From NCBI GenBank assembly GCA_947378965.1, contig CANCMG010000001.1, positions 62,001-126,000 of the forward strand: a stretch of DNA of 64,000 nt, written 5' to 3'. Below are positions 418-10,563 of the stretch, piece by piece (position 1 is the stretch's first letter; every line of letters begins with the position of its first letter). The translations under genes were made by a program, and so were the position numbers. Source of the DNA: Alcaligenaceae bacterium (GTDB lineage Bacteria > Pseudomonadota > Gammaproteobacteria > Burkholderiales > Burkholderiaceae_B). Below the pieces are notes generated by a model. The model saw nothing but the letters and a program-made list of their open reading frames with translations. It made no database searches and was not told the origin of the DNA.

Positions 418-1716
418 TCACAGTGGCATCTTGTTTAACTCAGTGCGCACGGGCAATTGCTTAAGCAAATCTTCTTTTGAAATTCGCTGCTTCACCTCAT
501 AACGTCCATTTTCGACACGACTAATGTAGTGATCGAGTATGCCAGCGTGATCCTCTTTACGGATAATCTTATCGCCTTGAGGATGCCCAATTGAGTTTTT
601 CAAACTCATGCCCTCTAAGGCCTGAATCACGCCTTCAACATCTTTTCGTGATTGATAGCCAGAAGCCTCAATTGCTGCCTTTAACGCAAACAAATCCTCC
701 CAAGATTGCCAAGCATGGCTCTTAGCCATGACGAGCTTTCCGTTTTTCTCACGAGCATAAATGTCATCGACATTCATTGCATTAATGAACTCTTGATGAA
801 ATGCATCGTCTTTATACTTTGCCACACGAGGGAAATTTTCTAACAGATAAACACCCTCAGCCGCGCCTTGTATCTCACCAGGATCAATTGCCTCCATAGT
901 GCCATTGACCGAATACATCTTTAGTTTTTTATCTAAGCCCATCGATTTAGCCTGAGTAAAAAAGGCAACCGAAAGCGACCCAAAGAAAATAGAGAACAGC
1001 ACCTCAGTGTCAGCAGGCACCTGCGCCAGATAAGGCACTAAATCTTTTGCGTCAAGCGGAACGGGTATACCTTTCAACCAAGTACCGCCTAAGCGCTCGA
1101 TCACGGCTTTTGCTTCGGCGTTATGGCTTTGGCCCCAGGCATAATCCGCATAGATCACGGTCCATTTTTTTCCTAAATTTTCAAGCGCCCACGGCACACC
1201 AGCTGCTGCCATCGAGTAGGTGTCGCTACCCGTTCTAAAGCTATAGCGCGTTCCTTTCGATCCCGTCGCCTCAGTGGCTTCGCCTTGCGAAAAATAGATG
1301 GTTTTAAGTTCTGTCGCAATCGGAATAGAAGCGAGCATCACGCCAGAATGAACAGACCCAACGACAAACTCAGCGTTACCACGTTGAATCAGATTACGCA
1401 GCTTTCTTGCTCCAGTCGCGGGGTTGGACTCAGTATCTTCAGTCAGCAGGGTCACCTTACGCTTCGCAATCCCACCCTCTGCATTGATCCGCTCAACGGC
1501 TTTTTTTGCACAGACATCGTGCCAATGCCCCCAAGAGGCAAAACCGCCCGTGATCTCGGCATGATGGCCAATCACAAGTGGGCCGCTCGTTTGAGCGTAA
1601 AGATCTTTCATGATGGTCATATTGGCCAAGCCCGCCGCCACTCCGCCTTTAAGCGCGAGGCTCAGCAAACTACGACGACCGGAATTAGGCGATTCTTTGT
1701 TTGCGAGATCATCCAT
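418..1716 (-). CDS. Branched-chain-amino-acid/amide-type ABC transporter substrate-binding protein, Tat signal
   Basis: A 432-residue type I periplasmic receptor of the LivJ/urea-amide class. The N-terminus has a twin-arginine motif (R14-R15 in GRRSLLSLAL) and a hydrophobic stretch, with likely cleavage near A41 in 'LYAQ', so export is probably by Tat. The mature part begins with the typical 'IGHHAEITGGFASWG' strand and contains 'ERINAEGGI'. It is the last gene of a minus-strand livH-M-G-F-receptor operon, 29 bp after livF. The neighbouring nitrilase and shared operators suggest a nitrile, amide or related ligand, but that is inference; the fold alone does not define the ligand. Confidence 0.88.
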   Translation of the reverse strand: MDDLANKESPNSGRRSLLSLALKGGVAAGLANMTIMKDLYAQTSGPLVIGHHAEITGGFASWGHWHDVCAKKAVERINAEGGIAKRKVTLLTEDTESNPATGARKLRNLIQRGNAEFVVGSVHSGVMLASIPIATELKTIYFSQGEATEATGSKGTRYSFRTGSDTYSMAAAGVPWALENLGKKWTVIYADYAWGQSHNAEAKAVIERLGGTWLKGIPVPLDAKDLVPYLAQVPADTEVLFSIFFGSLSVAFFTQAKSMGLDKKLKMYSVNGTMEAIDPGEIQGAAEGVYLLENFPRVAKYKDDAFHQEFINAMNVDDIYAREKNGKLVMAKSHAWQSWEDLFALKAAIEASGYQSRKDVEGVIQALEGMSLKNSIGHPQGDKIIRKEDHAGILDHYISRVENGRYEVKQRISKEDLLKQLPVRTELNKMPL

Positions 1717-1745
1717 GCTGTAGTGCTCCTGTCAGGGTTAAGAGG

Positions 1746-2459
1746 CTAAATTTTGATTTCTAGATGCTCAGAGAGGACTCGGGGGTCAGTCAAAATCGAT
1801 TGCGTACTGGCATTCATGACAATCTTGCCCTTATCCATGACTAGTATCCGCGTACACAAATCGAGGGCAGTTTTGACATTTTGCTCAACCAATAAGATTC
1901 CAATACCTTGCGCGTTAATCTTCTTGATTTCGGCTCGAATTTCAGAAACAAGCTTAGGCATAATCCCTTCAGTTGGCTCATCTAAAATAATCAGCTTGGG
2001 TTCCATTAACAAACAACGAGCAATCGATAACATCTGCTGCTCGCCGCCCGATAACGTGCCGCCTGGCTGCTCAAGCCTTTCTCTAAGCCGAGGAAATCTT
2101 TCAAATACGTACGCAACTAAGTCATCAGGTGCTTTGCTCTTGACGCCAAGAAATAAATTTTCTTTCACACTCAAGTTTGGAAAAATACCGCGGCCCTGCG
2201 GAACGTAACCGATTCCTAAGTGCGGAATTTTATGCGGAGCCAATGCTCTGAGCTCTTGGCCATCAAACGAAATCGATCCTTGCCCCGAGGCTAGTAATCC
2301 CATCACCGTTTTGAGCGTCGTCGTTTTACCAACGCCGTTGCGCCCAAGGATACCCACCGCTTCACCCTGCTCAACCTTAAATGAAAGATCCTGCAGAACA
2401 TTCACTCGCCCATAAGAGGCGTACACACTCTTTAATTCAAGTGCATGTTGCTTATTCAT
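1746..2459 (-). CDS. livF: ABC transporter ATP-binding protein, LivF type
   Basis: A 237-residue cytoplasmic ATPase that energises the adjacent LivHM-type permease. Walker A is GRNGVGKT (about residues 39-46), the signature is LSGGEQQM and Walker B is LIILDEPTEG, all intact. I chose the ATG at 2459 (MNKQHALELK), which overlaps the end of livG by 8 bp. The frame stays open to 2594, but that extension lies wholly inside livG and has no family resemblance. The length is normal for LivF. It is translationally coupled to livG. Confidence 0.92.
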   Translation of the reverse strand: MNKQHALELKSVYASYGRVNVLQDLSFKVEQGEAVGILGRNGVGKTTTLKTVMGLLASGQGSISFDGQELRALAPHKIPHLGIGYVPQGRGIFPNLSVKENLFLGVKSKAPDDLVAYVFERFPRLRERLEQPGGTLSGGEQQMLSIARCLLMEPKLIILDEPTEGIMPKLVSEIRAEIKKINAQGIGILLVEQNVKTALDLCTRILVMDKGKIVMNASTQSILTDPRVLSEHLEIKI

Positions 2460-3210
2460 CGGCACGCACCTCGTCGACTCCAAAGTACACGTCTTTGACG
2501 CTTTGATTGTCAGCAATTTCGCGCGGAGTCCCGCCAGCAAGTTTTGTACCAAACGCGAGTACAGTAATTTCATCTGCAAGCTTAAAGACGACATCCATGT
2601 CGTGCTCGATGATTACCACGTGCGTCTGTTTAGCAAGATTCGCAATCTTCGTCACGACTTTTTCTGTCTCTTGTGGGCTCATGCCGCACACAGGTTCATC
2701 GAAAAGGATCATACGAGGGCGCGTAATAATTGCCATTCCGATCTCAAGCAACGCGACATCACCGTAAGACAGCGTGCCGGCTTCTCTGTCGCGAAAGCGT
2801 TCAAGCTCAAGTTGCTCAATCACGCTCTCTACCTCTTCTCGCTCGAGACGATAATTTGCAACTTTCTTGAACGGGTTCAAATGCTCACGATGTGCAGACA
2901 GCGTAATCCAGAGATTTTCAAAAACTGACATACTGTTAAACACACTTTTCACTTGCAAGGTGCGCTTAATTCCAAGTCTTGAAATTTCGTGTATCGGTAA
3001 GTTTGTGATTTCACGATCTTCAAAAAAAATCCTACCTGAATCGGGTCTGATAAAGCCCGAAATCAAATTGAATAGGGTCGTCTTACCCGCACCGTTGGGC
3101 CCAATAATTGCATTGATCTTTCCGGACATCAACGACACACTTAAGTCATGGACGGCCTTGACGCCACCAAACGCCTTAGACAACTTGTCAATTTTCAAAA
3201 AGGGAATCAT
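2452..3210 (-). CDS. livG: ABC transporter ATP-binding protein, LivG type
   Basis: A 252-residue ATPase, the partner of LivF. Walker A is GPNGAGKTT (about residues 37-45), the signature region reads LSYGDVALLEIG and Walker B is MILFDEPVCGM. The signature departs from the more usual LSYGQQRRLEI after the glycine, which suggests an amide/urea-like branch of the family, though this is a weak inference. The start overlaps livM by 4 bp (ATGA) and the end overlaps livF by 8 bp, as in a tightly coupled operon. Confidence 0.92.
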   Translation of the reverse strand: MIPFLKIDKLSKAFGGVKAVHDLSVSLMSGKINAIIGPNGAGKTTLFNLISGFIRPDSGRIFFEDREITNLPIHEISRLGIKRTLQVKSVFNSMSVFENLWITLSAHREHLNPFKKVANYRLEREEVESVIEQLELERFRDREAGTLSYGDVALLEIGMAIITRPRMILFDEPVCGMSPQETEKVVTKIANLAKQTHVVIIEHDMDVVFKLADEITVLAFGTKLAGGTPREIADNQSVKDVYFGVDEVRADE

Positions 3211-4160
3211 GCGCCCCTCTTCTGAACATATTTCTTCCAGAGTCCCACAATTCCTTCAGGAGCAAAAATAACAATACAAATCGCAAAGGCACCCACAATC
3301 AATGCGTAGTGCTGCCAATGGCTCGAAACAATCTCTCTGATCAGGATAAAAATTCCAGTCCCAATTGCGGGGCCAAGTAGTGTGCCAATACCGCCCACGA
3401 TCGCCCAAACGACGCCTTCACCTGAGACGTGATAGAACATATAAGAGGCAGAGGCATAGCGTCCAAACAGCGCAAACAGGGTCCCGGACACACCCGCCAA
3501 GAAACCCGCAATCACAAAGGCCGCAAGACGCAGACGATAAACGTGAATGCCAATCAGTGATGCCCTCACATCATTATCGCGAATAGCGATTAACGAGCGA
3601 CCAAAAGCGCTTGCCATCACAATTCGGATGAGCCAAAAGCATAGGGCAACAACAATCAGCATAAAAAAATACTGTGTTGTTGCATCGGTCAGGCTGAGCT
3701 TATAACCCGCCCCAAGCGCGATATCAGGCAGCGAAAAATTAATACCGTCGTCTCCACCTGTCAGCGTCTTAAAGGTTAGCGCCAAGAAGTACATGATCAA
3801 AGAAAATACGACCGTAATGATCGCAAAATAATGCCAGGTTAAACGTACTGCCAAAATTCCGGTTAAAAAAGCAATCACGGTGGCACTCAACGGGCCCAAG
3901 AAAAATGCGGGCCAAAAAGAGAGATGCAACTCCGTGATTCCTAGCGCGACGCCATACATGCCAAAGCCAAAGTACAACGCCTGACCAAACGAGAGTAAGC
4001 CCACATAGCCGAATAAAAAATTAATACTTGCTGCAAAGCATGACCAGATGACTATCTCGGTCAGAATGCTCAGCCAAAAAGGATCCCCAAGCCAGGTAAT
4101 TAACCAAGGCGCTAACCCCAGCGCGACAAACAGGCCTGCGTAGCCTAAACCGATCCTCAT
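3207..4160 (-). CDS. livM: Branched-chain-type ABC transporter permease, LivM type
   Basis: A 317-residue inner-membrane permease with about nine hydrophobic segments. The conserved region 'LLSFGQALYFGFGMYG' and the cytoplasmic loop 'GRSLIAIRDNDVRASLIGI', which contacts the ATPases, identify the LivM family. It overlaps livH and livG by 4 bp on each side. With LivH it forms the membrane channel of the importer. No defect is seen. Confidence 0.93.
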   Translation of the reverse strand: MRIGLGYAGLFVALGLAPWLITWLGDPFWLSILTEIVIWSCFAASINFLFGYVGLLSFGQALYFGFGMYGVALGITELHLSFWPAFFLGPLSATVIAFLTGILAVRLTWHYFAIITVVFSLIMYFLALTFKTLTGGDDGINFSLPDIALGAGYKLSLTDATTQYFFMLIVVALCFWLIRIVMASAFGRSLIAIRDNDVRASLIGIHVYRLRLAAFVIAGFLAGVSGTLFALFGRYASASYMFYHVSGEGVVWAIVGGIGTLLGPAIGTGIFILIREIVSSHWQHYALIVGAFAICIVIFAPEGIVGLWKKYVQKRGA

Positions 4161-5017
4161 TTCGTCAGCCCCTTAAACAAACCCTGTGGGCGAACCAAAA
4201 GGACTGCACTCATCAAAACGAGCGAAAATATTCGGGCAATCGTTGGTGTGGCAAAGCCCGAGATCACGCCCTCTAAGAACGAAAGCAACACCGCAGCAGC
4301 TACAGTGCCCGGCAGATTACCCAAGCCGCCGATAATCACCGCCATAAAACAGAAGGGCAAAATATCGACTCCTGTACGAAAATCGACCGTTGTGATTGGC
4401 GCTGCAATCACGCCTCCGAGTGCTGCCATCGCAAAGCCGATACCGAACGTAAATAAATACACCTGCTGAGTCGGTATCCCCATCGCGGTCGCCGTGTCGC
4501 GGTCATGCCGTACTGCCCTCATCCAAGTGCCGAGTTTCGTTTTTTTAAGAAATATGAAAAATGCAAGAATCGCGATGATTGCAGCCACCGCGGCAAAGAT
4601 TCGATACCACTCGTATTCAATACCAAACAAACCAAAGGTGCCTTGAATCGGCGACATAATACGTTTTGGTGCTGCACCAAAAGTCATCCTTACAACTTCT
4701 TGAATAATCATAGATAGGCCAAACGTGGCCACAATGGAGAGTGCGGCATTGTTTTTGATTCGCTGAATGATCGAATACTGAACCAGCACGCCCAGCGCAA
4801 AACCAATTAACGGCGCGATGATCAGCGCAGGCCAAAAGAGCCCAAGCGAGGTGAGTGTCGTGTAGGTGAGTACCGTGCCCACCATAAAAAAATCACCATG
4901 GGACAAGTTAATAATGTCCAATAGTCCAAAAATAATAGACAGCCCTAAGGCGATGAGCGCAACGATCAGCCCAAATACGATGCCGTTAATAGCCAGCGCT
5001 ACTATCGTTTGATTCAT
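4157..5017 (-). CDS. livH: Branched-chain-type ABC transporter permease, LivH type
   Basis: A 286-residue permease with about eight membrane segments. It has the family hallmarks 'INLSHGDFFMVG' near the N-terminus and the ATPase-contacting loop 'GTWMRAVRHDRDTATAMGIP'. It is the first gene of the liv operon. A perfect inverted repeat at 5088-5113 lies about 70 bp upstream of its ATG, between it and the lysR gene, so the operon probably has its own regulated promoter. Confidence 0.93.
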   Translation of the reverse strand: MNQTIVALAINGIVFGLIVALIALGLSIIFGLLDIINLSHGDFFMVGTVLTYTTLTSLGLFWPALIIAPLIGFALGVLVQYSIIQRIKNNAALSIVATFGLSMIIQEVVRMTFGAAPKRIMSPIQGTFGLFGIEYEWYRIFAAVAAIIAILAFFIFLKKTKLGTWMRAVRHDRDTATAMGIPTQQVYLFTFGIGFAMAALGGVIAAPITTVDFRTGVDILPFCFMAVIIGGLGNLPGTVAAAVLLSFLEGVISGFATPTIARIFSLVLMSAVLLVRPQGLFKGLTK

Positions 5018-5054: not shown

Positions 5055-5060
5055 AGTCTA
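5055..5060 (-). promoter_or_regulatory. Possible -10 hexamer of the liv operon
   Basis: On the minus strand the hexamer TAGACT (4 of 6 matches to TATAAT) begins about 40 bp from the centre of the inverted repeat at 5088-5113. The same geometry is seen at the nitrilase promoter. No good -35 is present, as expected for an activator-dependent promoter. The call depends on the paired geometry rather than on the hexamer alone. Confidence 0.35.
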
Positions 5061-5087
5061 ATCGACTACTCTGAAAATGCAAGGCTG

Positions 5088-5113
5088 TTTTTTGCAAGCA
5101 TGGTTGCAAAAAA
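5088..5113. promoter_or_regulatory. Perfect inverted repeat, candidate LysR operator of the liv operon
   Basis: TTTTTTGCAA (5088-5097), spacer GCATGG, TTGCAAAAAA (5104-5113): two perfect 10-bp arms. The core TTTGCAA-N6-TTGCAAA is the same as at 6056-6081. It lies between the end of lysR and livH, upstream of the importer operon. It does not have the classical T-N11-A spacing centred on the dyad, but a long A/T-flanked dyad suits a LysR-family site. Confidence 0.65.
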
Positions 5114-5127
5114 TCGACCTAACGAGG

Positions 5128-6039
5128 CTATTGATTCAAAAATACATCATCAGATTCAAAAATAGACTTGATGAACCGATGAACCTGAGAGACCCGCTCG
5201 ACCGCCAAGAGGTCACTTTGAGCGCTAATGAAGATCTCGCGCTTCACGCGCACGCTATCTGTCAACACAGGCGTCAATTCAGAGCCCTTGGGAATCGCAA
5301 ACTTAGGGAATAGACCCAAGCCCACCCCCGAGGAAGCAAACGCGATCTGGGCCACCATGCTGCTAGAGGTGACCTGAGATTGCGGACCTTTAATCACCTC
5401 CTCTAGCCAGCGCACCGTGTCCATCTGAATCAGATCATCGATATACGTCACGAACCGGTGCTGCTGCAGATCGGCCACAGACTTGGGCTGCCCGAACTGA
5501 GCGAAATACTCAGCGGTGCCATACAGATAAAGCACAAATTCACCCACTTTTTCGCAAACGATACCTTTGCCAGACTGCTTAAAAAAACTCAAAAATAAGT
5601 CAGCTTCTCGGTATCCGACCTTGATGTAATTGGATGAAGTCACCAATTCAAGACGTATCCCAGGGTACTCGCTGAAAAATGGCTTAAATTTATTTGCCAG
5701 ATATAACGAACCAATGCCCTCCATCATCGCGACTCGAACGGTGCCAGCGATCTCTTTTTCTGGCTGAACAATATCGGCCAAGCCCTGTATGCCAAGCTCA
5801 ACACGCTCGAGTTGTTCAACAATTTCATCAGCAAATTTCGTGTGAATCATGCCGCCTCGGGTGCGCTGAAAGAGCTTATGGCCAAGACACACCTCAAGCT
5901 GTGCAATCCGTCGACTTACCGTCGAGTCGTCTAGCTTCAACTTCTTGGCGGCATTGGTAATATTTCCTGAACGGTAGACGTTCAGGAAAATTTTTAGGTC
6001 CTCCCAATTCAACTGCCTATGTTTCGAATGCGCGGTCAT
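5128..6039 (-). CDS. LysR-family transcriptional regulator
   Basis: A LysR-type regulator of about 303 residues. The N-terminal winged helix-turn-helix is clear ('LNWEDLKIFLNVYRSGNITNAAKKL' to 'STVSRRIAQLE'), followed by the periplasmic-binding-like effector domain. I prefer the ATG at 6039 (MTAHSKHRQL). The longer frame to 6102 would place the perfect dyad at 6056-6081 inside the coding region. It is divergent from the nitrilase and upstream of the liv operon, so it probably controls both and possibly itself. The inducer is unknown. Confidence 0.88.
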   Translation of the reverse strand: MTAHSKHRQLNWEDLKIFLNVYRSGNITNAAKKLKLDDSTVSRRIAQLEVCLGHKLFQRTRGGMIHTKFADEIVEQLERVELGIQGLADIVQPEKEIAGTVRVAMMEGIGSLYLANKFKPFFSEYPGIRLELVTSSNYIKVGYREADLFLSFFKQSGKGIVCEKVGEFVLYLYGTAEYFAQFGQPKSVADLQQHRFVTYIDDLIQMDTVRWLEEVIKGPQSQVTSSSMVAQIAFASSGVGLGLFPKFAIPKGSELTPVLTDSVRVKREIFISAQSDLLAVERVSQVHRFIKSIFESDDVFLNQ

Positions 6040-6055
6040 TAGCGGTCGGCTTTGT

Positions 6056-6081
6056 AAATTTGCAATACAGGTTGCAAATTT
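6056..6081. promoter_or_regulatory. Perfect inverted repeat, candidate LysR operator between lysR and nitrilase
   Basis: AAATTTGCAA (6056-6065), spacer TACAGG, TTGCAAATTT (6072-6081): two perfect 10-bp arms. It shares the core and the 6-bp spacer length with 5088-5113, and both spacers end in GG. It lies in the divergent lysR/nitrilase promoter region, centred about 53 bp before the start expected from the -10 at 6110. That is a usual position for LysR activation with autoregulation. Confidence 0.68.
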
Positions 6082-6109
6082 ACTCTGATTCATTGCAGCC
6101 ATTCAAGCT

Positions 6110-6115
6110 TAGAAT
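6110..6115 (+). promoter_or_regulatory. Possible -10 hexamer of the nitrilase gene
   Basis: TAGAAT (5 of 6 matches to TATAAT) begins about 42 bp after the centre of the operator at 6056-6081. There is no recognisable -35. Transcription would start near 6122, leaving a short leader before the ATG at 6140. This argues against the TTG at 6116 as the start codon. Confidence 0.45.
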
Positions 6116-6139: not shown

Positions 6140-7135
6140 ATGCAGAACACAGTGACTAAAGTTGCAGTTGCACACGTCGCACCGGTTTTTTTGGACAAAA
6201 CAGGTACTGTCTCGAAGGCCTTGGGGCTTATCCAAGAAGCTGCCCAAAATGGTGCACAACTCATTGTATTCCCTGAATCCTTTATTCCGGGATTCCCTAT
6301 TTGGGCAGCGCTTTGGTCGCCCATGCAAAATCACGATTTATTTCAACGCTTCGTCGAAAACAGCTTGTTATGCGATGGGCCCGAAGTCGCAGCCATTGCT
6401 GCGCAAGCAAAAAAATTTAATATCTTCGTATCCTTTGGCTTGAGCGAAGCGAGTCACGCCAGCGTGGGGTGTATCTGGAATTCAAATATTTTGATTTCTG
6501 ATCAAGGTGAAACTCTCATTCACCATCGCAAACTTGTACCGACTTTTTTTGAAAAACTCATCTGGGCACCCGGAGATGGTGCCGGCCTCAAGGTGGCGCG
6601 TACCCGCATCGGAAACATTGGGGGTTTGATCTGCGGAGAAAACACCAATCCGCTGGCTCGGTACGCACTGATGACTCAAAAAGAGCAAATTCATATCTCA
6701 AGTTGGCCACCTATTTGGCCCACGCGCAACCCAACCGACGGTGGCAATTACAACAATTTGCAAGCCAATCGTATCCGCGCCTCGGCGCACTCGTTTGAGT
6801 CGAAATCGTTCGGAGTTGTCTGCGCCGGTTTCATGGACAAACCCATGTTTGAGTTTTTAGTGAAAAGAGATCCTGGCGTTGCAAATGTGCTTGAGAATAC
6901 ACCGGGAGCAGAATCATTCTTTGTCAATCCAACTGGCACACAGTTTGGCGATACTTTACAAACTGAAGAAGGCTTAATCTATGCTGAGCTTGATCTCAGT
7001 CAGTGCATTGAACCTAAACAATTTCATGATGTCGTTGGTTACTACAATCGCTTTGACGTCTTCGATTTGAAAGTCAATCGTAAGCGGATTGAACCGATTA
7101 CTTGGGTAAACCTTGCCGACGATTCATCAAGCTAA
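6140..7135 (+). CDS. Nitrilase (carbon-nitrogen hydrolase superfamily)
   Basis: A cytoplasmic enzyme of 331 residues that hydrolyses a nitrile to carboxylate and ammonia, if it is a true nitrilase. The catalytic triad is visible: Glu46 in FPESFIPGFP, Lys131 in HHRKLVPTFFEK and Cys165 in GLICGENTNP. The tryptophan-rich segment after the cysteine ('ISSWPPIWPTRN') is typical of the nitrilase branch rather than of amidases. The ATG at 6140 is preferred because GGGA lies 5 bp upstream; the TTG at 6116 overlaps the promoter. The gene is divergent from lysR and converges on the reductase at 7132 with a 4-bp overlap. A cyanide-hydrating relative cannot be excluded. Confidence 0.88.
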   Translation: MQNTVTKVAVAHVAPVFLDKTGTVSKALGLIQEAAQNGAQLIVFPESFIPGFPIWAALWSPMQNHDLFQRFVENSLLCDGPEVAAIAAQAKKFNIFVSFGLSEASHASVGCIWNSNILISDQGETLIHHRKLVPTFFEKLIWAPGDGAGLKVARTRIGNIGGLICGENTNPLARYALMTQKEQIHISSWPPIWPTRNPTDGGNYNNLQANRIRASAHSFESKSFGVVCAGFMDKPMFEFLVKRDPGVANVLENTPGAESFFVNPTGTQFGDTLQTEEGLIYAELDLSQCIEPKQFHDVVGYYNRFDVFDLKVNRKRIEPITWVNLADDSSS

Positions 7136-8124
7136 AACTGCACCACCGCACGCCCGCGTACACCCGACTGAATCAGCTTATCGCAGTGCGCTTTTAAATC
7201 ATCAAAGGCGATGGTGTAAGCAATCTTATGAATGTGCCGCGGCCGCAGGTCGCCACCTTTTTGCATGCGCGCCCACACTGCACCGCGGGTAGGAACCGGA
7301 TGATTACCATTGATACCCACCAGCGAGACTGCACGCAAAATAAATGGGTAAATCGCCGTACTAAACGTTTCGCCTGCCGCATTACCGAAAGCGCACACGA
7401 CACCACGCTGCTTGGTGGACCGCAAGGCCGCATCCAGCGGCTGACCGCCTACCGCGTCAATCACACCAGCCCATCTCTGCTCTTCTAAAAATTTATCGCC
7501 ACCCGCAATCTCATCACGGCCAATGACTTCTGTTGCTCCGATGCTTTTTAGATACTCAGACTCAGACTCTTTTTTACCCGTGCTCGCCACAACTTGATAC
7601 CCTAAGCCTGCCAACATATCAATCGCAAACGAAGAGCTACCACCCGTACCGCCAGTGACCAAAATCGGACCGTGCTCTGGCTTAACGCCGCGCAACAACA
7701 ACTCATCGACCGCCAACGCTGACGTATAGGCTGCCAAGCCCATCGCCACAGATTCAAAAGGATCGGTGTCTTCAGGAACATGTGCAGCCCAATCACCAGG
7801 TACCCGCACATACTCGCTATAAGCACCATCGCGCCGCATACCGAACTCGCGTCCACCTTGCACGGTGACGACATCGCCAAGTTTGAAATGTGGGTTGCTC
7901 GATTCGACCACTAAGCCAGCGACTTCTACACCAGGCACCGCTGGCAGATTCGAAAGCACCTTACCGATACCAGTGACTGCTCGCGCATCTTTATAGTTCA
8001 CTGCAGCGTACTGGGATTGAATCACAATGTCGCCCAGCGCAAGATCAGCAATTGACTGTTCAATCATACGACTGACGCGCTGTCCGCCTTCTTCATATAA
8101 CTTGATCGACTTGAATTTCATCAT
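7132..8124 (-). CDS. Acrylyl-CoA reductase-like / YhdH-type quinone oxidoreductase
   Basis: A 330-residue medium-chain dehydrogenase/reductase of the AcuI/YhdH group, which reduces acrylyl-CoA or related enoyl-CoA with NADPH. The 'YAAVNYKDARAVTG' and 'PGVEVAGLVVESS' regions fit this group, and the nucleotide-binding loop is VTGGTGGSSSFAIDML. No structural-zinc cysteine cluster is seen, as is usual here. It is the last gene of the minus-strand run that begins with the molybdenum hydroxylase, 123 bp after the CoA transferase. The true substrate is not defined by the sequence. Confidence 0.82.
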   Translation of the reverse strand: MMKFKSIKLYEEGGQRVSRMIEQSIADLALGDIVIQSQYAAVNYKDARAVTGIGKVLSNLPAVPGVEVAGLVVESSNPHFKLGDVVTVQGGREFGMRRDGAYSEYVRVPGDWAAHVPEDTDPFESVAMGLAAYTSALAVDELLLRGVKPEHGPILVTGGTGGSSSFAIDMLAGLGYQVVASTGKKESESEYLKSIGATEVIGRDEIAGGDKFLEEQRWAGVIDAVGGQPLDAALRSTKQRGVVCAFGNAAGETFSTAIYPFILRAVSLVGINGNHPVPTRGAVWARMQKGGDLRPRHIHKIAYTIAFDDLKAHCDKLIQSGVRGRAVVQF

Positions 8125-8247
8125 TTTCTCGGTGACCTTTCATCACTCACGCATAGCGAGCAGTCAAATTTAACAATGTGTATCGGTCTGCGCAACGCTC
8201 AGCACCACCAACTGTCTCGTCCTTTCGTGCGGCAAGCACATCACAAC

Positions 8248-9471
8248 TCAAGCCCGCTGAAGCACCGCGCCACAAGCAAGCAACGCATCGATCTCAGTTT
8301 GCGACAGACCAAACTCAATCAGAATCTGACAACTGTGCTCGCCGAGCGCTGGTGGCCCATAGCGTACGCGCGACTGCGCATCGCGATCACCCGCAGCAAA
8401 GCCTGGCATCCGCACCAACCCCGCCACCGAACTATGGGTGTCGACAATCACACCGTTGTGTGCGAGTTGAGGTGATTGCATCACCATGTTGTAGTCAGCA
8501 ATCGGGCCACAAATAATATCAGCCGCCTCAAACAGCTCTTGCCACTCAAACGATGTTTTATGTGCCAGCAATACTGTCAACTCTTTCATTAAGGCATCGC
8601 GATTGGCGACACGCTTTGGAATCGTCGCAAAATCAGGGTGCGTCGCCAGCGCAGGCTTTTGTAGTAAGTCACACAGCGCGAGCCAGCGATCATCGTGGTA
8701 CGCCGCAATCATGATCCAGCCGTCTTTCGTAGGATACGCTTCGTTAGGCGCCGAGTATGGCGCTGCGGTCCCCGTGCGCAAGGGCAGTTCGTCACTCGAC
8801 AGATAAGAGGCCACGGCCGAACCCTGCAACATCAAGGCGCTGTTGTACAACGAAAAATCAAGATGCTGACCCTGCCCCGTCGCCTCGCGCACACGCAACG
8901 CTGCAAGCACAGCCGAGGTCGAGATAAAGCCGGTGACCATATCCACGGCGGGCACCAACACTTTCATCGGTGGTGAGTTCGCATCACCAATATTACTCAT
9001 CAGGCCAGAGACTGCCTGAACAATGCCATCGACTCCCGCCTTATCGCGCCAAGGTCCCGTCTGACCGTAGGCTGAAACTGACCCAAAAATCAAACCACGG
9101 TTGAGCGCCTGCAAGGTCGCGAAGCCCACACCGAGCTTATCCATCACACCCGGTCGAAAGCTTTCAAGCACGATATCGGACTGCGCAGCCATGCGCTTGA
9201 TCAACGCAACGCCCTCTGGTTTTTTTAAATCAACCGAGAGCGAACGCTTATTGCGATTAAAGCTCATCGATACAACCGACTCACCTTCTTGCCAGGGTGG
9301 GCCCAGCTTTCTACCAATATCACCGCCGGGCGATTCAACTTTGATGACCTCGGCACCCATGTCACCAAGCTGCATACCGATCAATGGACCTGCGCCGATC
9401 TGCGTGAAATCGAGTACTTTGATACCACTCAAAGCATGATTGATATTCACACCCTCTGCGTTGCTCATCAC
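8248..9471 (-). CDS. CaiB/BaiF family (class III) CoA transferase
   Basis: A 407-residue cytoplasmic enzyme that moves CoA between carboxylates. Family marks are 'LDFTQIGAGPLIGMQLGDMGAEVIKVE' near the N-terminus, 'NRNKRSLSVDLK', the catalytic aspartate D177 in 'PAVDMVTG', and 'GQGQHLDFSLYNS'. It lies between the Bug receptor and the AcuI-like reductase. This suggests that the imported or oxidised acid is activated to its CoA ester and then reduced. Donor and acceptor are unknown. Confidence 0.9.
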   Translation of the reverse strand: MMSNAEGVNINHALSGIKVLDFTQIGAGPLIGMQLGDMGAEVIKVESPGGDIGRKLGPPWQEGESVVSMSFNRNKRSLSVDLKKPEGVALIKRMAAQSDIVLESFRPGVMDKLGVGFATLQALNRGLIFGSVSAYGQTGPWRDKAGVDGIVQAVSGLMSNIGDANSPPMKVLVPAVDMVTGFISTSAVLAALRVREATGQGQHLDFSLYNSALMLQGSAVASYLSSDELPLRTGTAAPYSAPNEAYPTKDGWIMIAAYHDDRWLALCDLLQKPALATHPDFATIPKRVANRDALMKELTVLLAHKTSFEWQELFEAADIICGPIADYNMVMQSPQLAHNGVIVDTHSSVAGLVRMPGFAAGDRDAQSRVRYGPPALGEHSCQILIEFGLSQTEIDALLACGAVLQRA

Positions 9472-9507
9472 TGTTTCCTGCTGTATTGATCTGTCAAAGC
9501 GGTGACC

Positions 9508-10563
9508 TTATTTCTCAAGTTTGAAACCCATGGCTTTGATTGTTTTTTGCCAAAACAGTAAGTCACGTTTCAGCATTTCATTCATCTGCTGTGGATTCAA
9601 ATACGTCACAATAAAACCCTGACCCGTTAACCGATCACGAAGGACAGGGTCAGCCAAGGCACGCGAAAACTCGAGAGAGAGTCTTTCGACAATATCTGCA
9701 GGCGTGTTTGCAGGGGCAAGGATCGAATACCACAGCGGCGCATCAAACCCTGGCAACGCCGCCTCGGCGATGGTTGGAACCGACGGCATCGCAGCCGAAC
9801 GTTCTGGTGTCGTCACGCCAAGGGCTCGCAGTTTACCCGCCTTAACCAGCCCATCCAGTGAGGCCATCGTGCCAATTGCGCTCTGCACTTGCCCACCGAC
9901 TAAGTCAGCAATCGCGGGGCCAGTCCCTTTATAGGGCACATGCGTAACCTGCACGCCGGCCGAGTAATTAAATAGTTCAAACGCGATGTGCTGAGCGGTA
10001 CCCGAGCCAGGAGTCCCGTGATTGAATTTTCCAGGGTTCGCTTTAACCAAGGCGATGAATTCTTTCAAGTTCTGCACGGGCACCGAGGGATGCACAACCA
10101 ACACCATCGGGACTGAAGCAATCTGGGCTACGGTAACAAAATCTTTTTCAATATCAAACGGTACTTTGTTATCCAGCCAAGGGTTGATCGTGATTTGATT
10201 GGCTGCGATCAACATCGTGTAACCGTCCGGGGCTGAACGTGCAACAAACTCAGCTCCGATATTACCTCCAGCGCCGCCCTTATTTTCAACAACAACACTC
10301 TGTCCTAAACCTTCTGACAAGAGTGGAGCGAGCGCACGCGCCAAAATATCGTTGCCGCCGCCAGGAGGAAAAGGCACGACAAAACGTATCGATCGCTCTG
10401 GAAACTTTGTCGTCGTTTGGGCTAGAGACTGCTGCGCTATCACAATGCCAATCAGCGCCATCACAGTCACGCCGAATCGTGCTAACCGAGACCCCAAATC
10501 GAAACGCCGTGCGGCTTGCGCTTCAGGTTGAGAGACTACGTTTATATCTTGAGTCATATTCAC
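9508..10563 (-). CDS. Bug/TctC-family solute receptor
   Basis: A 351-residue periplasmic receptor. The family signature 'IRFVVPFPPGGGNDILARAL' is followed by 'VVVENKGGAGGNIGAEFVA' and 'PDGYTMLIA'. The signal segment is unusually far from the start: about 30 mostly polar residues precede the hydrophobic stretch ending at 'SLAQ' (about residue 49). A later start is possible but no better one is obvious. No TctA/TctB permease is nearby. Its position before the CoA transferase suggests it senses or delivers that pathway's substrate. Confidence 0.88.
   Translation of the reverse strand: MNMTQDINVVSQPEAQAARRFDLGSRLARFGVTVMALIGIVIAQQSLAQTTTKFPERSIRFVVPFPPGGGNDILARALAPLLSEGLGQSVVVENKGGAGGNIGAEFVARSAPDGYTMLIAANQITINPWLDNKVPFDIEKDFVTVAQIASVPMVLVVHPSVPVQNLKEFIALVKANPGKFNHGTPGSGTAQHIAFELFNYSAGVQVTHVPYKGTGPAIADLVGGQVQSAIGTMASLDGLVKAGKLRALGVTTPERSAAMPSVPTIAEAALPGFDAPLWYSILAPANTPADIVERLSLEFSRALADPVLRDRLTGQGFIVTYLNPQQMNEMLKRDLLFWQKTIKAMGFKLEK

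Follow-up and report, generated by a model that had tools for sequence, protein, structure and literature searches.

RESULTS

Gene content of the locus

The window, by which we mean the whole 64,000-nucleotide stretch of DNA analysed, contains an ABC importer operon, a gene for a LysR-type regulator and a gene for a nitrilase-superfamily enzyme, together with two inverted repeats (Table 1). The importer is of the liv/urt type, with a binding protein, two permeases and two ATPases encoded together on the minus strand (418-5017). None of these five proteins reaches an NCBIfam cut-off for urea (Urt) or branched-chain amino acid transport; the binding protein finds its best match in UrtA with 85 bits (cut-off 492.75). 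The true start of the LivF/UrtE-like ATPase probably lies near 2459, where its relative from a Polynucleobacter genome (L035, see below) begins to align. The regulator combines an N-terminal HTH_1 with a C-terminal LysR_substrate domain, both scoring above the Pfam gathering thresholds.

Nitrilases are widely used enzymes, and to our knowledge the natural roles and inducers of most of them are unknown. The enzyme encoded here has the CN_hydrolase fold and a Glu-Lys-Cys triad (E46-K131-C165), placing it in the nitrilase superfamily. E46 and K131 are present in 23/23 aligned nitrilases and C165 in 22/23, the exception (L090) being gapped at this position. Its closest relatives of known structure are named nitrilases, a cyanide hydratase and cyanide dihydratases. 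The best NCBIfam match is the Nit6803 family (TIGR04048), at 209 bits far under the equivalog cut-off of 502.6, and we therefore do not assign the enzyme to that family.

Beyond the nitrilase, on the opposite strand, the window encodes a member of the AcuI-like acrylyl-CoA reductase family, a family III CoA-transferase and a TctC-type binding protein (7132-10563). We considered these genes as a continuation of the pathway (an acrylate route) and set them aside because no operator of the kind described below precedes them. The AcuI-like gene was likewise rejected as a regulon member: it is convergent with the nitrilase gene, and L035 has a different oxidoreductase in this place.

Table 1. Features of the importer-lysR-nitrilase locus, in window coordinates
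Feature	Position	Strand	Description
Periplasmic substrate-binding protein, liv/urt-type ABC importer	418..1716	-	Pfam Peripla_BP_6 206 bits, Peripla_BP_5
ABC importer ATPase, LivF/UrtE-like	1746..2594	-	Pfam ABC_tran; best NCBIfam UrtE 244.7 bits, cut-off 285.8
ABC importer ATPase, LivG/UrtD-like	2452..3210	-	Pfam ABC_tran; best NCBIfam UrtD 239 bits, cut-off 304
ABC importer permease, LivM-like	3207..4160	-	Pfam BPD_transp_2
ABC importer permease, LivH-like	4157..5017	-	Pfam BPD_transp_2; first gene of the importer operon
-10-like hexamer TAGACT, importer promoter	5060-5055	-	first base 40.5 bp from operator 1 centre
Operator 1 (putative)	5088-5113	.	perfect inverted repeat, 10-bp arms, 6-bp spacer
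LysR-type regulator	5128..6042	-	304 aa from ATG 6042; Pfam HTH_1 60.1 bits, LysR_substrate 75.5 bits
Operator 2 (putative)	6054-6083	.	perfect inverted repeat, 12-bp arms, 6-bp spacer
-10-like hexamer TAGAAT, nitrilase promoter	6110-6115	+	first base 41.5 bp from operator 2 centre
Nitrilase-superfamily enzyme	6140..7135	+	331 aa; Pfam CN_hydrolase 143.8 bits

Two inverted repeats with a common core

Operator 1 reads TTTTTTGCAA-GCATGG-TTGCAAAAAA and operator 2 GTAAATTTGCAA-TACAGG-TTGCAAATTTAC; common to both is the core TTTGCAA-N6-TTGCAAA. As TTGCAA is its own reverse complement, each dyad is equally a pair of palindromic TTGCAA boxes at a spacing of 12 bp. The first-pass annotation had described two perfect 10-bp repeats with spacers of equal length. 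Both repeats are present and both spacers measure 6 bp, but the second repeat is longer than claimed, its arms extending to 12 bp. The placement given there is correct, with one dyad before livH and the other between lysR (ATG 6042) and the nitrilase gene (ATG 6140), and the -10-like hexamers, put at 40-42 bp from the dyad centres, indeed begin at 40.5 and 41.5 bp. The position of operator 2 between divergent lysR and nitrilase genes is the usual layout for a LysR-type regulator. The T-N11-A motif, usual for LysR-type sites, is not centred on either dyad; two T-N11-A strings occur per site, both off-centre. Both dyads are instead centred on TGCA-N8-TGCA, equivalent to T-N14-A, a spacing compatible with LysR-type membership since other spacing variants are known.

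Repeats of this kind are rare. In Markov simulations, a 64-kb sequence contains on average 0.05 perfect repeats whose arms reach at least 10 bp around a 6-bp spacer, and none of 40 such simulations contained a pair of repeats sharing the same 7-bp arms and 6-bp spacer. A genome scan for the exact core (14 bases), proposed in the earlier annotation as a check against many unrelated copies, returned two places in 4,503,821 bases, both at this locus. Allowing up to two mismatches yields 60 places (29 for a reversed-pattern control); the mean for shuffled windows, 0.89 per 64 kb, scales to ∼63 genome-wide, and the inexact matches therefore look like background.

The shorter pattern TTGCAA-N6-TTGCAA occurs at six places in the genome, namely the two dyads and four places inside ORFs, which we rejected as regulon members because all are intragenic. 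A one-mismatch place on C27, between ORFs and ahead of one of them, was also rejected, inexact matches being no commoner than chance. An 11-bp inverted repeat within lysR (5963-5989), terminator-like on the plus strand, is absent from the congener G004, and we regard it as coding chance.

Conservation in congeners and in a diverged relative

Matches to the regulator at E ≤ 1e-30 were found in 21 of the 101 genomes searched. Within the genus, besides the window's own genome, only G004 (95% identity) and G009 (97%) encode it, and the nitrilase (E ≤ 1e-60) has the same distribution. Both congeners keep the two dyads with a single change, located in a spacer, and are too close to the window to count as independent evidence. 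The exact core occurs at nine places in 32 genomes of the genus (two for the reversed control): two in each of the three genomes with LysR and nitrilase, and three across the other 29. This co-occurrence of site and regulator is confounded, as genomes without LysR lack the whole locus. The three places in LysR-less congeners were rejected as members: two are in ORFs, and one, between ORFs, adjoins a MiaA-like ORF (judged by eye).

A more distant comparison is offered by L035, a metagenome-assembled genome of a Polynucleobacter sp., whose LysR and nitrilase are 69% and 80% identical to those of the window. Its gene order is that of the window (nitrilase, operator, lysR, operator, livH onward). 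The 7-bp inner arms of the two operators keep 27/28 bases and the 12-bp arms of operator 2 keep 22/24; the spacers keep 4/12 and the intervening DNA 14/44 bases. One arm of operator 1 carries a mismatch without compensation in the other arm. TTAGACT is retained on the importer side (7/7), as are 13/15 bases of ATTCAAG-N2-TAGAAT on the nitrilase side, and the distance from dyad to -10 is unchanged at both promoters.

A clade of LysR regulators linked to a nitrilase

We placed the regulator in a tree of 48 LysR rows, comprising 17 of 195 matching plasmid records and loci from the genome searches. On the window's side of one branch (the window and 22 loci grouping with it) a similar nitrilase lies beside LysR in 23/23 rows, compared with 0/25 of the others. 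Nitrilases in these loci were called by tblastn at E ≤ 1e-8 and are 46-96% identical, that of L090 being incomplete. The branch has support values of 92/83 and occurs in 90% of bootstrap trees, and the nitrilase label requires one change on the tree; near-copies are present in both sets, and some long branches were flagged. The locus stretches are 8.5 to 19.5 kb long, and a nitrilase farther away could thus be missed. One locus outside the clade (L102) carries a gene annotated as a carbon-nitrogen hydrolase, which gives no match to the window nitrilase at E ≤ 1e-8. A second importer-nitrilase pairing was seen in genome G057 (L077:19-2517), where LivG- and LivF-like genes directly precede another nitrilase (44% identical); the contig starts within the operon, leaving the promoter outside it.

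Recurrence of the operator across the clade

For the clade we assembled 13 promoter sets, taking one locus per close group and drawing the regions by hand. TGCA-N8-TGCA is present in 8/13 (0.21 expected), a count that includes the window and L035 and uses a TGCA box chosen after the sites were known; the largest count at any TGCA spacing in 500 simulations of the 13 sets was four loci. The motif is missing from the sets of G039, Erwinia, Klebsiella, Rhizobium BT04 and B. glumae (5/13). Erwinia has instead TGCA-N4-TGCA (two boxes 8 bp apart) before a DUF485 gene, Rhizobium BT04 CGCAC-N6-GTGCA and B. glumae TGTGC-N6-GCACA; none of these forms occurs in the G039 and Klebsiella sets. Within 330 bp upstream of lysR, TGCA-N8-TGCA is found at 8/23 clade loci (five once near-copies are removed) and at 0/25 loci outside the clade.

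Two other lineages show the site. In one genus (g2; G157, G159, G160 and G161), with a LysR about 43% identical to that of the window, 4/4 genomes fetched have TTGCAA-N6-TTGCAA ahead of a DUF485-symporter-nitrilase operon, at a distance of ∼3.6 kb from lysR; these genomes are close relatives and contain two to five places with this pattern each. Five genomes of the genus without this nitrilase contain one to three. The other is G441, from another family and with 68% GC, whose gene synteny is that of the window (binding protein 70% identical, livF 63%, livG 53%, livM 67%, livH 69%, LysR 45%, nitrilase 65%). It has TGCA-N8-TGCA before the nitrilase gene (at 9091) and again before livH, within the 3′-terminal part of the lysR ORF (at 8073), the latter site lying outside the promoter regions used for the 8/13 count.

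Further sites were noted on the way. The g2 genomes G156, G157, G159, G160 and G161 each carry TTGCAAGAAGCTTTGCAA at one further place, and TTGCAAATTTGCAA, with two boxes 8 bp apart, stands before lysR in 4/4 g2 genomes fetched (L068:10740-10753). In rhizobia, a similar site precedes a gene for a PLP-dependent aminotransferase of class V near lysR (L091:8978-8997, L096:6975-6994 and L090:9783-9802), a placement which suggests that the regulon may be wider there.

Distance between operator and -10 element

A promoter scan detected no sigma-70-type pair at either the importer or the nitrilase promoter of the window, as would fit activator-dependent promoters. We compared the -10 offset over 13 of 23 rows, having dropped near-copies (G009, G004, L069, L070, L071, L090 and L096) and rows read towards lysR (Variovorax, Rhizobium and BT04). 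The summed TATAAT match over the 13 sites is maximal, at 48, 40.5-41.5 bp from the dyad centre (next separate offset, 37). It remains maximal there when the window's two sites are left out: the 11 others, of which L035 contributes two, sum to 39, against 32 at the next separate offset. At this offset, 0/2000 single-base shuffles reach either score. A hexamer with at least four matches to TATAAT is found at 39.5-42.5 bp in 9/13 sites; the four sites with no such hexamer there are those before the G441 and Variovorax nitrilase genes, the Rhizobium PLP gene and the Bradyrhizobium DUF485 gene. One of the dropped rows, from Rhizobium, has GATCAT at 41.5 bp, tied for best.

DISCUSSION

A predicted two-operator circuit

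The sites, their rarity and conservation, the link between LysR clade and nitrilase, and the recurring -10 distance can be read from the DNA itself. Together they make it highly likely, on comparative grounds, that the LysR regulator binds both dyads and activates the importer and nitrilase operons, while probably repressing its own gene. The comparative tests thus support the small LysR regulon of importer and nitrilase put forward in the first-pass annotation, including the regulator-site link that had been conjecture there: the sites are unique in the genome, arms and -10 elements are kept in L035, the nitrilase is linked in 23/23 clade loci, and the same half-sites and spacing reappear in further genera, one of which has its genes in a different order.

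The regulator would contact a TTTGCA/TGCAAA half-site in each arm, that is, two TGCA boxes 12 bp apart. The effector may be a small molecule that the importer brings in, or a product of its hydrolysis, binding to the LysR effector domain; the effector-bound protein would then activate the liv-type importer from operator 1 and the nitrilase from operator 2. An activator position is suggested by the distance of ∼41 bp between each dyad centre and the first base of the -10 element downstream of it, which would put the centre near -53 of the expected start, just upstream of a would-be -35 element. Only ∼26 bp separate the centre of operator 2 from the lysR start codon, which makes this site a probable mediator of negative autoregulation. 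Binding, activation, autorepression, the identity of the inducer and a nitrile as substrate are what we infer. By analogy, the mechanism would follow the general LysR pattern.

It is unlikely that the dyads instead serve a different regulator, such as a global nitrogen regulator acting on both operons, with LysR acting elsewhere or on itself. Half-sites of the TTGCA type are also used by unrelated proteins, among them LuxO, with the consensus TTGCA-W3-TGCAA (PMC8911003), and operator 1, standing before livH, adjoins only the 3′ end of lysR. Many sites would be expected for a global regulator, however, whereas only two exact copies of the pattern exist in the genome, and the remaining TTGCAA-N6-TTGCAA matches fall within ORFs. 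Moreover, the site recurs across genera within this LysR clade, in g2 despite another gene order, and TGCA-N8-TGCA is missing within 330 bp upstream of 25/25 LysR genes outside the clade.

The repeats might also act in RNA, with operator 1 terminating or attenuating transcription between lysR and livH and operator 2 forming a leader hairpin. The two dyads form stable RNA folds (z -2.9 to -4.3), and operator 1 lies 14 bp beyond the lysR stop codon, but this reading is quite improbable. Both dyads lie upstream of the conserved -10 elements and thus outside the expected liv and nitrilase transcripts, the spacing between dyad and -10 recurs across loci, and the operator 1 arm change in L035 goes uncompensated. 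With no T-run following operator 1 on the lysR strand and operator 1 absent from the output of a terminator scan, we hold a terminator there, judging from the scan and RNA folding, to be unlikely. Finally, simulations predict about one repeat (0.93) with arms of at least 10 bp in every 64 kb if any spacer from 0 to 12 is allowed, so that one might think of two unrelated AT-rich palindromes. This is scarcely credible for two dyads with the same arms, the same spacer and nearly the same -10 offset that are unique in the genome; their conservation at 69% LysR identity, as seen in the aligned loci, makes chance very unlikely. We thus retain binding of both dyads by the LysR regulator as the preferred reading.

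Substrate and uptake systems

The neighbours of the LysR-nitrilase pair vary by lineage and include a symporter, an NrtA-type ABC system and, in rhizobia, Rid and PLP enzymes. The Variovorax locus has genes for malonate decarboxylase at a distance of ∼7-9 kb from the nitrilase gene. In G441 (L103:9181-11575) the ORFs of the nitrilase and a malonyl-CoA decarboxylase share 17 bp as listed, a hint that the downstream product may be malonate. From the G441 and Variovorax neighbours we would guess at a cyano-carboxylate substrate, for instance cyanoacetate converted to malonate. A broader reading, which we put forward tentatively, is that of a Proteobacteria-wide LysR family dedicated to nitrilases, with one operator grammar and an exchangeable uptake system, the substrate perhaps being a cyano-carboxylate. 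The grammar could possibly consist of TGCA boxes mostly 12 bp apart and ∼41 bp before the -10 element; the systems conceivably swapped, though this too is doubtful, would be a liv-type ABC importer, an NrtA-type ABC importer and a DUF485-SSF symporter.

Where a family of regulators belongs with a single nitrilase clade and its operator is readable, targets, transporters and finally substrates could become predictable in many genomes. The regulator and its promoter may also serve as a sensor for nitrile compounds. The locus further extends the known LysR-type sites by one whose spacing is unusual and whose distance to the -10 element allows comparison between lineages.

Comparison with known systems

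The two-operator catabolic regulon under a LysR-type protein is a well-known kind, and the predicted circuit is probably real but ordinary in this respect. NitR of Rhodococcus likewise controls a nitrilase gene but belongs to the AraC family rather than the LysR family. Our literature search, for which subscription journals were mostly beyond reach, returned no LysR-controlled nitrilase cluster or substrate and no description of this LysR clade, its operator or its exchangeable transporters.

Searching the PDB with the window LysR gave 3szp and 3t1b, which we take to be AphB, as second and third best matches. AphB, a LysR-type regulator of Vibrio, recognises TGCAA-N7-TTGCA at tcpP, a half-site nearly that of the window dyads and the nearest we found in print (PMC8911003). 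The spacer differs, being 7 bp for AphB and 6 bp in both window dyads and in L035, and the two proteins share low similarity (60.9 bits); the AphB targets named alongside this site in PMC8911003 include no nitrilase genes.

In its arrangement the locus recalls CutR, a LysR-type regulator of Mycobacterium sp. JC1 with paired IR1/IR2 sites (TTAAG-N6-CTTAA), described in PMC12609908. As predicted for the window LysR, CutR works with a pair of matching N6 dyads, one upstream of its target and the other upstream of the gene that encodes it; IR1 lies at about -60, and the spacing exceeds T-N11-A. It differs in its half-sites, in its CO dehydrogenase target and in being T-N12-A where the window has T-N14-A. 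PMC12609908 also gives T-N13-A for IlvY, T-N12-A for PcaQ and T-N10-A for OccR, which shows that LysR-type sites may deviate from T-N11-A; compared by spacing alone, the T-N14-A of the window is one base longer than that of the IlvY operator.
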